This document shows, piece by piece, positions 54,651 through 56,869 of a DNA stretch of 64,000 bases. The notes under the pieces are model-generated. The model was not told the DNA's origin. It made no database searches and saw nothing but the letters and a program-made list of their open reading frames with translations. The position numbers and the translations under genes are program-made. The stretch is from Methanomassiliicoccus sp. (GTDB taxonomy: Archaea > Thermoplasmatota > Thermoplasmata > Methanomassiliicoccales > Methanomassiliicoccaceae), in NCBI GenBank assembly GCA_012719175.1, contig JAAYAX010000011.1, positions 186,001 through 250,000 on the forward strand. The letters run 5' to 3'. Position 1 is the stretch's first letter. Each line of letters begins with the position of its first letter.

Positions 54651-54729
54651 ATCGCGGGAAAAGCAAGCTGCCGGGACGACACAGCGGCATACGATTACCT
54701 TCTTCTTGAGGGAGCAGGATACTCCAGCG

Positions 54730-55341
54730 ATGAACATACTCGTCGTGCTCGCTCACCCCAGCCCTGAGAGCTTCAATCATGCGATCGCCAGTACCGTGCT
54801 GGAGCAGTTAGGCAAGGACGGTCATGCGGTCAACTTCCATGACCTCTGCGCAGAGGGGTTCGATCCCCTGCTGCCGGCGCAGGAGATCCCCAAGGGCGCG
54901 ACCCTTGATGAAGGCCTCTCCCTGCACTGCCGCCAGCTGGCCGAGGCCGACGGGATAGTGATCATCCACCCCAACTGGTGGGGGCAGCCTCCGGCCGTCC
55001 TAAAGGGATGGGTGGACAGGGTGGTGCGTCCCGGAGTCGCTTACAAGTTCGTGGAGGGTGATGGCGGAGAGGGCGTGCCCGAAGGGCTGCTGAAGGCCAA
55101 GGTTGCGCTGGTGTTCAACACCTCGAACACCCCCATGGACAGGGAGAGGGCGGTGTTCGGCGACCCGTTGGAGGCCATCTGGAAAAGCTGCATCTTCGAT
55201 CTCTGCGGAGTTAGGACGTTCCATCGCCGGATGTTCAGTGTCATCGTTACTAGCACATGCGAGAAGCGTTCCGAGTGGCTGACGGAGGTACGCGAAATGA
55301 CGGGCGAATGCTTCCCTCCCGATAGGTCCATCGGACCATGA
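54730..55341 (+). CDS. flavodoxin-fold NAD(P)H:quinone oxidoreductase
   Basis: A 203-aa protein of the NQO/MdaB-like flavodoxin-2 family. It starts MNILVVLAHPSPESFNHAIA, a standard FMN/FAD phosphate-binding loop, followed by DGIVIIHPNWWGQPPAVLKG and GVAYKFVEGDGG. KSCIFDLCGVRTFHRRMFSV comes later. ATG 54730 starts at the conserved strand; the frame extends back to 54706. It probably performs two-electron reduction of quinones or other electrophiles with NAD(P)H. It stands between the por cluster and the ribosomal cluster, same strand. Confidence 0.88.
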   Translation: MNILVVLAHPSPESFNHAIASTVLEQLGKDGHAVNFHDLCAEGFDPLLPAQEIPKGATLDEGLSLHCRQLAEADGIVIIHPNWWGQPPAVLKGWVDRVVRPGVAYKFVEGDGGEGVPEGLLKAKVALVFNTSNTPMDRERAVFGDPLEAIWKSCIFDLCGVRTFHRRMFSVIVTSTCEKRSEWLTEVREMTGECFPPDRSIGP

Positions 55342-55402: not shown

Positions 55403-55414
55403 TAATTATAAATA
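55403..55414 (+). promoter_or_regulatory. TATA box of the rpl7ae operon
   Basis: TAATTATAAATA is a strong TATA-box match. It lies about 80-90 bp before the L7Ae start. Transcription starting some 25 bp downstream would leave a leader of about 60 bases, long for this genome, in which many genes seem leaderless. Confidence 0.65.
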
Positions 55415-55450
55415 CGGCCGTTTCTTTGGCCTGTTTGCATTCTCGTGCAA

Positions 55451-55490
55451 CCGATGAATGATGAGGATGTGTTACATCCGAATGAGGTGA
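55451..55490 (+). promoter_or_regulatory. kink-turn-like element in the L7Ae mRNA leader
   Basis: The leader contains ATGATGA (55458-55464), an exact box C consensus RUGAUGA. A perfect 6-bp stem GGATGT/ACATCC with a GTT loop follows (55465-55479), then GA (55480-55481). This places two GA steps across from each other, so G55463-A55481 and A55464-G55480 could form the tandem sheared pairs of a kink-turn, with GAT (55460-55462) as the bulge. The outer stem is weak (two pairs visible). The ribosome binding site GAGGTGA (55484-55490) follows at once. L7Ae is a kink-turn-binding protein, and L7Ae binding to its own leader has been reported in archaea, so feedback control of translation is plausible. 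Confidence 0.6.
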
Positions 55491-55494
55491 AAAA

Positions 55495-55866
55495 ATGGCA
55501 AAAGCAATGTTCGTTCGTTTCGAGATGCCCAAGGAGCTATCGGACAAGGCCTACGAGATTGTAGAGGCCGCCCGAGACACCGGAAAGATCCGCAAGGGGA
55601 CCAACGAGGTTACCAAGTTGGTAGAGCGGGGAGATGCCGTCATGGTCGTCATGGCCGAGGACGTTCAGCCCCCAGAGATACTTGCTCACATGCCCCTCCT
55701 GTGCGAGGAGCGCAATGTCATCTACGCTTATGTTCCGTCCAAGGCCGAACTGGGACACGCCGTCGGCCTTGAGAAGCCGACCGCCTCGGTCGCCATACTG
55801 GACGCTGGAAAGGCCAAGCCCCTGCTGGACAACTTCTCCGAGCAGGTGAAGAAGCTGAAGCAGTGA
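55495..55866 (+). CDS. rpl7ae: ribosomal protein L7Ae
   Basis: A 123-aa L7Ae, a protein of the large ribosomal subunit that also binds kink-turns in box C/D and H/ACA RNAs and in RNase P. The RNA-binding signature [21 protein letters not shown] and the loop [19 protein letters not shown] are intact. It has a good ribosome binding site (GAGGTGA, five bases before ATG) and a leader with a kink-turn-like hairpin. It is first in the conserved L7Ae-S28e-L24e-Ndk operon, 16 bp before S28e. Confidence 0.97.
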
Positions 55867-55882: not shown

Positions 55883-56098
55883 ATGCCTGAGGACGAGAGC
55901 AGCATACCTTCGGAAGTGGTGGAGATCATCGGTCGTACTGGTATGACCGGCGAGGCCACCCAGGTCAAGGTGCGTGTGCTCGAGGGCCGTGACAAGGGTA
56001 GAATCATCACCCGCAACATCATGGGCCCCGTGCGCATGGGAGACATACTAATGCTTAGAGAGACCTCCAGAGAGGCCCGCAAGCTATCCATACGGTGA
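55883..56098 (+). CDS. rps28e: ribosomal protein S28e
   Basis: A 71-aa small-subunit protein S28e. The core [20 protein letters not shown] and the end [16 protein letters not shown] are highly typical of the family, and the length is normal. It lies 16 bp after L7Ae and 5 bp before L24e. Confidence 0.97.
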
Positions 56099-56103
56099 TC
56101 TGA

Positions 56104-56412
56104 ATGGTCGAGAGAAGGGTCTGCTCCTTTTGCGGAGCGGAGATGGAACCCGGCACCGGCAAGTTGTTCGTCAAGAAGGACGGCACGGTGCTATCGTTCG
56201 ATACCAACAAGTGCTACAAGAACATGATCGAGCTGGGCAGGATCCCCCGGAGGACCACCTGGACCCGCGCGGCCAAGAGGGAGAAGGAGATCACCCTTGC
56301 CGCCGCCGCGCCCAAGGAAGAGGCCGCCGCCCCTGCTGATGAGAAGATCAAGAAGATCACCGCCAGCAAGGTCCGCCGGAAGAAGGCGTCCGCTCCTAAG
56401 AAGAAGGAGTGA
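56104..56412 (+). CDS. rpl24e: ribosomal protein L24e with long C-terminal tail
   Basis: A 102-aa L24e. The core is VCSFCGAEMEPGTGKLFVKK, then a third cysteine in NKCYKNM and GRIPRRTTWTR. Archaeal L24e normally has four zinc-binding cysteines in a CxxC...CxxxC pattern; here the first cysteine of the second pair is aspartate (SFDTNKC), so only three remain. After residue 55 comes an Ala/Lys/Glu-rich tail of about 45 residues not seen in typical 55-70-aa L24e, ending in KKASAPKKKE. It lies 7 bp before ndk. Confidence 0.95.
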   Translation: MVERRVCSFCGAEMEPGTGKLFVKKDGTVLSFDTNKCYKNMIELGRIPRRTTWTRAAKREKEITLAAAAPKEEAAAPADEKIKKITASKVRRKKASAPKKKE

Positions 56413-56419
56413 GCCTACC

Positions 56420-56869
56420 ATGGAGCGCACTTTCGTGATGCTCAAGCCCGATGCTGTCCAGCGTGGGCTCATGGGCGATATCCTGGCACGCATCGAGGCC
56501 AAGGGTTTCAAGCCCGTGGCTATGAAGTTCATGCGCATACCCAAGGAGCTCGCGGAGCGCCATTACGGTGAGCACAAGGGCAAGCCGTTCTTCCCTGGCC
56601 TCATCGAGTACATGACCTCCGGCCCCGTGCTCGTGATGGTGTGGGAGGGTGAGAACATCATCGCCGCCATGCGGACCATGATGGGCGCCACCAACCCCCA
56701 GAACGCCGCCGTGGGCACCATCCGCGGCGACTACGCCCAGCAGACCGGTAGGAACCTCATCCACGGCTCCGACGGTCCTGAGTCGGCCAGAAGGGAGATC
56801 GAGCTGTTCTTCAACGACTACGAGCTCCAGAACTGGAACCGCAGCCTGGACCCCTGGTATCTAGAGTAA
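56420..56869 (+). CDS. ndk: nucleoside diphosphate kinase
   Basis: A 149-aa NDP kinase that balances nucleoside triphosphates by a phospho-histidine intermediate. The N-terminus RTFVMLKPDAVQRGLMG and the active-site RNLIHGSDGPESARREI with its catalytic histidine are intact, and the length is normal. It begins 7 bp after L24e. In most archaea the next gene in this operon is aIF5B on the same strand; here four opposite-strand genes come between. Confidence 0.97.
   Translation: MERTFVMLKPDAVQRGLMGDILARIEAKGFKPVAMKFMRIPKELAERHYGEHKGKPFFPGLIEYMTSGPVLVMVWEGENIIAAMRTMMGATNPQNAAVGTIRGDYAQQTGRNLIHGSDGPESARREIELFFNDYELQNWNRSLDPWYLE

Follow-up and report, generated by a model that had tools for sequence, protein, structure and literature searches.

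L7Ae is central to archaeal ribosomes, to box C/D and H/ACA sRNPs and to RNase P, and its leader kink-turn (k-turn) is in use as a synthetic-biology switch. The rpl7ae gene of a Methanomassiliicoccus species raises the question of how many k-turns its own leader holds, and how these are placed relative to the ribosome binding site. We analyzed this leader within a stretch of 64,000 nucleotides (the window), where a first-pass annotation had proposed one k-turn beside the Shine-Dalgarno (SD) sequence and autoregulation by L7Ae. Our results indicate that the leader is a tandem (double) k-turn, one nested in the other with a 2-bp spacer between them. We give this explanation as a whole, including L7Ae-dependent closure of the SD, a probability of roughly three in four. 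Single leader k-turns for L7Ae autoregulation are already known; the widespread double form appears to be undescribed.

Layout of the rpl7ae leader

The features of the locus are as follows.

55406..55414, + strand: TATA box TTATAAATA, from sequence, 81-89 bp 5′ of the rpl7ae ATG
55450..55452, + strand: ACC, 5′ strand of the outer k-turn C-helix; pairs with GGU at 55486-55488
55453..55457, + strand: bulged strand of the outer k-turn, GAU bulge (L1-L3) plus GA, from sequence and conservation
55458..55459, + strand: AU, 5′ strand of the spacer; pairs with AU at 55482-55483
55460..55464, + strand: bulged strand of the inner k-turn, GAU bulge plus GA, from sequence and conservation
55465..55479, + strand: inner k-turn NC-helix GGAUGU/ACAUCC with loop GUU, from covariation
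55480..55481, + strand: GA, non-bulged strand of the inner k-turn; GA in 89/93 leaders where not imposed
55482..55483, + strand: AU, 3′ strand of the spacer, from sequence
55484..55488, + strand: GA (outer non-bulged strand) plus GGU (3′ strand of the outer C-helix), which is also the SD, GAGGU(G)
55495..55866, + strand: rpl7ae (eL8/L7Ae), TIGR03677 at 158 bits (cutoff 134.6); presumed ligand and target of the leader element
55883..56866, + strand: S28e, L24e and nucleoside-diphosphate kinase (ndk) genes downstream of rpl7ae

In protein comparison, the best matches of the window's L7Ae are Methanomassiliicoccus MAGs. Judging from close spacing, rpl7ae and S28e-L24e-ndk probably form one operon. 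The TATA box had been put at 80-90 bp upstream, in agreement with its location, and transcription would be expected to start about 25 nt 3′ of it, near 55436-55440. An inverted repeat, GGCC-GTTTCTTT-GGCC (55416-55431), lies between the TATA box and this expected start and comes up as terminator-like; it is probably promoter context or chance. The gene 5′ of rpl7ae (54706-55341) shows a likeness to NAD(P)H quinone oxidoreductase/KefF-type flavoproteins that falls under the curated cut-off.

The leader element (55450-55488) reads 5′-ACC-GAU-GA-AU-GAU-GA, then the hairpin GGAUGU GUU ACAUCC, then GA-AU-GA-GGU-3′. Both units possess the 3-nt bulge followed by tandem G·A and A·G pairs of a standard k-turn: GA at 55456-7 faces GA at 55484-5 in the outer unit, and GA at 55463-4 faces GA at 55480-1 in the inner one. 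Both also possess the two flanking helices. The C-helix has 3 bp in the outer unit (ACC:GGU) and just 2 bp in the inner (AU:AU), where it leads into the outer G·A pairs, while the NC-helix is 6 bp with covariation in the inner unit and in the outer consists of 2 bp and then the inner k-turn. The 2-nt spacer serves both as the start of the outer NC-helix and as the C-helix of the inner k-turn. Previously recognized L7Ae leader elements are k-turns in the l7ae 5′ UTR adjacent to or including the SD, and the element described here includes it. Since the SD GAGGUG forms part of the outer k-turn, folding of the outer k-turn would close the ribosome binding site directly.

All the sequence elements that the first-pass annotation had recorded are in place: ATGATGA (55458-55464), the perfect 6-bp stem GGATGT/ACATCC (55465-55470 and 55474-55479) with its GTT loop, a GA flanking the stem base on both sides (55463-4 and 55480-1), and the SD (GAGGTG from 55484) followed by the L7Ae start at 55495. 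The site it had marked, 55451-55490, is real, with proper bounds of 55450-55488. Its one k-turn beside the SD corresponds to the inner unit, and the second copies were overlooked (GATGA at 55453-55457 as well as 55460-55464, GA at 55484-5 as well as 55480-1, each pair separated by a 2-nt spacer). What it had taken for a weak outer helix, perhaps of a kink-loop-like variant, is instead the 2-bp AU/AU spacer, followed by a second tandem-GA k-turn with its C-helix ACC:GGU.

Free-energy folding of the leader was no better than that of shuffles (z = 0.46), although the 6-bp hairpin alone was predicted to be stable. A folding energy at the level of shuffles is expected of a protein-dependent switch, yet it is no proof of one, and free-energy folding by itself tells us nothing either way.

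Conservation and covariation

The window contains one instance of the pattern GATGA-NN-GATGA-N(6-36)-GA-NN-GAGG, for which 0.01 occurrences are expected. To place this in a wider frame, we collected 199 non-identical L7Ae leaders from genome contigs and from searches of Thermoplasmatota and of groups containing Thermococcales and Archaeoglobi/Methanosarcinales. The tandem with exact 2/2 spacing was present in 151 of these 199 leaders, a set that is not phylogenetically independent, against a mean of 5.7 in dinucleotide shuffles that kept the SD region. When the outer C-helix was also required to have two or more base pairs, 133 leaders were counted against 1.5 in shuffles (maximum of 5 in 50 runs). 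The remaining spacer combinations were mostly near or below chance; the excesses seen at 2/1 (33 leaders), 2/3 (32), 3/2 (20) and 2/4 (11) are attributed to overlapping GA placements. More distant groups contributed another 40 leaders, of which 18 fit the tandem pattern, although L315, L318, L320, L324 and L326 are among odd-register fits that should be discounted.

Conservation was also assessed without imposing the motif being counted. In 93 leaders chosen for their outer k-turn and for four or more base pairs where the NC stem should lie, the inner sites read GA in 91/93 on the bulged strand (b2, the second GAUGA) and in 89/93 on the non-bulged strand. Position L3, likewise not imposed, is U in 99/100 outer and 100/100 inner bulges. 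Positions L1-L2 are variable (the bulge may be GAU, UGU, CGU, AAU, CAU or UAU), and the GA is invariant. Conservation of the 3′ strand has in part another cause, because the second GA (n2) and the GG that follows it double as SD bases.

These patterns bear on whether a simpler element would suffice. A single k-turn (the inner one, the second GAUGA with the first GA, b2·n1) or a k-loop might bind one L7Ae and leave the upstream GAUGA and the GA of the SD as bystanders. The inner NC hairpin is indeed more stable than any other part of the leader and covaries the most, and one k-turn suffices for repression in Sulfolobus. However, conservation is as strict for the first GAUGA, the CC preceding it and the 2-nt spacing as for the inner copy, and a single inner k-turn or k-loop, which leaves all three unexplained, was rejected as quite unlikely.

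It is far less probable that the conservation comes from an upstream ORF, an N-terminal extension of L7Ae or the SD alone. There is an ATG at 55454 that is open into the leader, but it lies 41 nt from the L7Ae start and out of its frame. The leader element is not coding because its length varies by single-nucleotide steps between species, and both the upstream ORF and the extension were rejected on these two grounds. As for the SD alone, the conserved 5′ GAUGANUGAUGA is not an SD.

Pairing in the nested tandem was evaluated on an alignment of 41 diverse leaders. Nesting calls for ten Watson-Crick pairs, and these were formed in 86% of cells, compared with 29-45% when partners were slid by 1-3 columns, and the covariation score was 0.479 versus 0.175 for shuffled alignments (0/500). 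Two-sided changes were seen at all five tested pairs of the inner hairpin, with 89% of its cells paired. In the outer C-helix, CC:GG is nearly invariant and the -1 position is C:G or U:G in 41/41 sequences. RNAalifold, run unguided, recovered the outer CC:GG and the NC stem. In the 151 tandem leaders, the inner -1 pair (-1b:-1n) is U:A in 123, C:G in 24 (the Thermococci form), U:G in 2 and C:A in 2. The first-pass annotation had suggested covariation analysis of the leader in related genomes, and had named loss of the GA steps and stem in relatives as the outcome that would speak against it. Both checks were run; the pairs are kept or covary, and the element is deeply conserved.

The outer 3b:3n pair, which falls in the spacer, is usually A·G or A·A and is Watson-Crick in some lineages only, namely A:U in the window's family and C:G in soil Thermoplasmatota. 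A non-Watson-Crick pair at this position is not disqualifying, because a trans sugar-Hoogsteen A3b:G3n pair occurs in the RAGATH-18 k-turn (PMC8191799).

Register and the Archaeoglobus fulgidus leader

The repeat is symmetric, and either GA could in principle pair with both bulged strands. This leaves room for two alternative registers with one k-turn formed at a time, the repeats letting the hairpin slip or giving one L7Ae two chances. The -1 pairs distinguish the registers. The nested pairs are kept in 97% (outer, b1·n2) and 100% (inner, b2·n1) of Thermoplasmatota leaders, but for the -1 pair of the mixed register b1·n1 (first GAUGA with first GA) the figures are 6% in Thermoplasmatota leaders and 0% in those of Archaeoglobi.

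Leader L228 precedes an L7Ae identical to that of A. fulgidus, and we take it to be the A. fulgidus leader on the basis of an A. fulgidus L7Ae query sequence that matched 100% over 119 residues in one genome. It reads GCC GAU GA AU GAU GA UUUGAU GA AG GA GGU, which is the same tandem, and the nested register gives it a C:G pair at -1. The corresponding loops in its relatives are CCUGGU, UUUAAA, CGAAAG, CGCAAG and CGGAAG, several of which consist of one C-G pair plus a GNRA-type tetraloop. The NC helix of the single-register model is lost with these changes, and the nested model tolerates them.

The published structure of the A. fulgidus l7ae UTR k-turn with L7Ae (PDB 6HCT; Huang, Ashraf and Lilley 2019, PMC6298567) resembles the leader studied here in its GCC-GAU-GA bulged strand, in having the SD in the C-helix and in protein-dependent folding. 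It differs in that it was drawn and crystallized as one k-turn, whereas the natural leader L228 has a second GAUGA and a second GA. In the construct, the bulged strand is GGGCCGAUGAAUGA and the non-bulged strand UCAUGAAGCCC; they are aligned in the mixed register b1·n1, which puts C opposite A at -1, and the crystal has two bases changed (PMC6298567). This structure speaks for alternative registers. However, the published single-k-turn register is not conserved in its relatives at the sequence level and was rejected. In addition, equal 2/2 spacing is a requirement of nesting and not of slippage, and we consider it unlikely that the two registers alternate.

Predicted autoregulation and its distribution

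In Sulfolobus, translation drops when L7Ae binds a k-turn in the leader of its own mRNA, and an E. coli reporter has shown that the leaders of several other archaea are responsive to L7Ae as well (Daume et al. 2017, PMC5539422). The leaders of that study, from Sulfolobus acidocaldarius and other archaea, share with ours the gene, the ligand, an SD-adjacent site and, in their case, GA-dependent translational repression. They differ in that one k-turn per leader is described, with a tandem not mentioned in the portion of the paper available to us, and high leader sequence conservation is reported there in Sulfolobales only (PMC5539422). Leader RNA from A. fulgidus has no structure unless L7Ae is present, and with the protein its SD ceases to be accessible (PMC6298567). 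In that complex, N33 and E34 of L7Ae contact G1b and G2n, together with K37 and R41 (PMC6298567). Mapping by eye gives N37, E38, K41 and R45 as their counterparts in the window's L7Ae.

With the nested tandem as the preferred reading, we predict the following. When L7Ae is absent, the outer part would be too weak to hold, leaving the SD free and translation running. L7Ae in excess of its ribosomal, sRNP and RNase P targets would bind and stabilize the k-turn or k-turns, which would shut the SD inside the outer k-turn and reduce translation of rpl7ae, probably along with that of the linked S28e-L24e-ndk. The inner, hairpin-capped k-turn may nucleate L7Ae binding; this binding, or that of a second L7Ae, would then fold the outer k-turn and close the SD. 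We infer that both k-turns would form together, that L7Ae would bind both and that repression would act by SD occlusion; excess L7Ae probably switches off its own production. The autoregulation proposed by the first-pass annotation is thus retained in part: a k-turn-based leader is well supported by deep conservation of its sequence, and the architecture had been misread as single.

Both k-turns have a Watson-Crick 3b:3n pair (A:U outer, G:C inner). By published folding rules they are therefore predicted not to fold with ions but to depend on L7Ae, although the C:G pair at the outer -1 position points the opposite way, toward ion-driven folding. We know of no structure with two k-turns only 2 bp apart and two L7Ae molecules. 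More tentatively, each leader might bind two L7Ae molecules cooperatively, with a steep (near-quadratic) response to free L7Ae; the tandem might be the ancestral euryarchaeal form, and the A. fulgidus structure might represent a non-native register. Should the natural switch prove to be a tandem whose outer k-turn includes the SD, the published model needs revision in its register, stoichiometry and cooperativity. Nature would then also offer k-turns that sit 2 bp apart on the same strand, and with them a direct test of k-turn folding rules.

Other double k-turns are known. Euryarchaeal RNase P RNA reportedly contains a double kink-turn module, described by Lai and colleagues in 2017. Compared by title only, it is likewise a double k-turn in an archaeal RNA bound by L7Ae, but it resides in RNase P RNA and not in an mRNA. 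The same-strand repeat with 2-nt spacing, TGANNNNTGA, was not found in the RNase P RNA region of this genome, and RNase P P12 as a mimicked target was set aside on that account. Synthetic crystal units (Huang and Lilley 2016, PMC5058347) also carry two k-turns per duplex, each able to bind L7Ae. They are engineered and inverted, with loops on opposite strands, a junction through the NC-helix and ten base pairs between the loops, whereas both bulges of the rpl7ae leader are on the same strand and 2 bp apart. Our literature search on double or tandem k-turns with L7Ae returned no tandem leader; supplements and subscription papers were outside its scope, so an earlier mention is possible.

A covariance model of the tandem (R1) was used to examine specificity. 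It found the L7Ae leader in 14/15 family genomes at 46-53 bits, with the next best match at 22 bits. The sub-threshold matches that were opened (L273-L278 and L284) lie in or across ORFs of other genes, and as candidate tandems at those genes they look like chance. When 120 genomes of the phylum were searched, 32 had a match at E 0.001 or better; 31 of the 32 adjoin L7Ae, and the other is a weak match in G549. Inspection by eye revealed no clear tandem in the Nop5 leaders of the family, and several of their starts could not be placed. In the family and phylum genomes searched, the tandem is tied to rpl7ae and is not common to an L7Ae regulon.

We regard it as very improbable that a box C/D guide RNA or sRNA overlaps the leader. 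RUGAUGA resembles box C, and weak sub-threshold matches to C/D snoRNAs were seen. But Rfam holds no family for the leader element and none reaches threshold, the element always abuts the rpl7ae SD, and there is no CUGA box D downstream or C′/D′ pair at the expected places. The candidate was rejected for want of a box D and an Rfam match.

The tandem is present in Thermoplasmatota, Archaeoglobi, other Halobacteriota and Thermococci, which suggests that the regulator is old and broadly shared. It was absent from the families sampled with R1 that we guess to be Thermoplasmatales and Poseidoniales-like; in these and in the sampled Haloarchaea, several lineages have no tandem or an outer-like k-turn alone. 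The outer-like k-turn is kept and the inner lost in L053 (CAUACC-GAU-GA-AAG-GA-GGUAUG), L058, L060, L065, L078, L157, L218 and L237, with a 4-nt loop in L218 and L237. This is the reverse of what a single inner k-turn predicts. Since some lineages retain the outer-like k-turn alone, the outer k-turn that holds the SD seems to be the constant core, to which the inner one would be an add-on or a stabilizer. Elsewhere, the outer C-helix is weaker in Thermococci, where its -1 position is paired in 65%, and the inner NC stem is all but missing in some Archaeoglobi.

Several variants were observed. In the Thermococci leaders L170-L198, the tandem has the spacer AC/GG and an inner loop of 6-8 nt, and the partner of the outer C-helix is UG(A/U) 3′ of the main SD in place of GGU; SD occlusion would thus differ in detail. 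Other Thermoplasmatota (L013-L048, L098-L132) carry a second hairpin, of the GCUC...GAGC type and of variable length, that abuts the outer k-turn on its 5′ side and shares its first C. An abutting 5′ stem of at least 4 bp was found in 63/75 leaders versus 29.6 in shuffles (maximum 43); in the window's own family the count was 5/13 versus 2.6, which is not clear. This hairpin could compete with the outer C-helix as an anti-sequestering switch. Distant relatives (L289-L300) have L7Ae leaders without the tandem; from their sequence, these may contain a k-turn whose polarity is reversed, its GAUGA lying on the 3′ strand and overlapping the SD (for example, AUCGACCGAGG...GGAUGAGGUGAU). In L154, the inner unit has apparently lost its bulge but still has GA facing GA (CCGAUGAAUGACGGUAACAACCUGAAUGAGGU), which makes this leader a natural intermediate between a single and a double k-turn.
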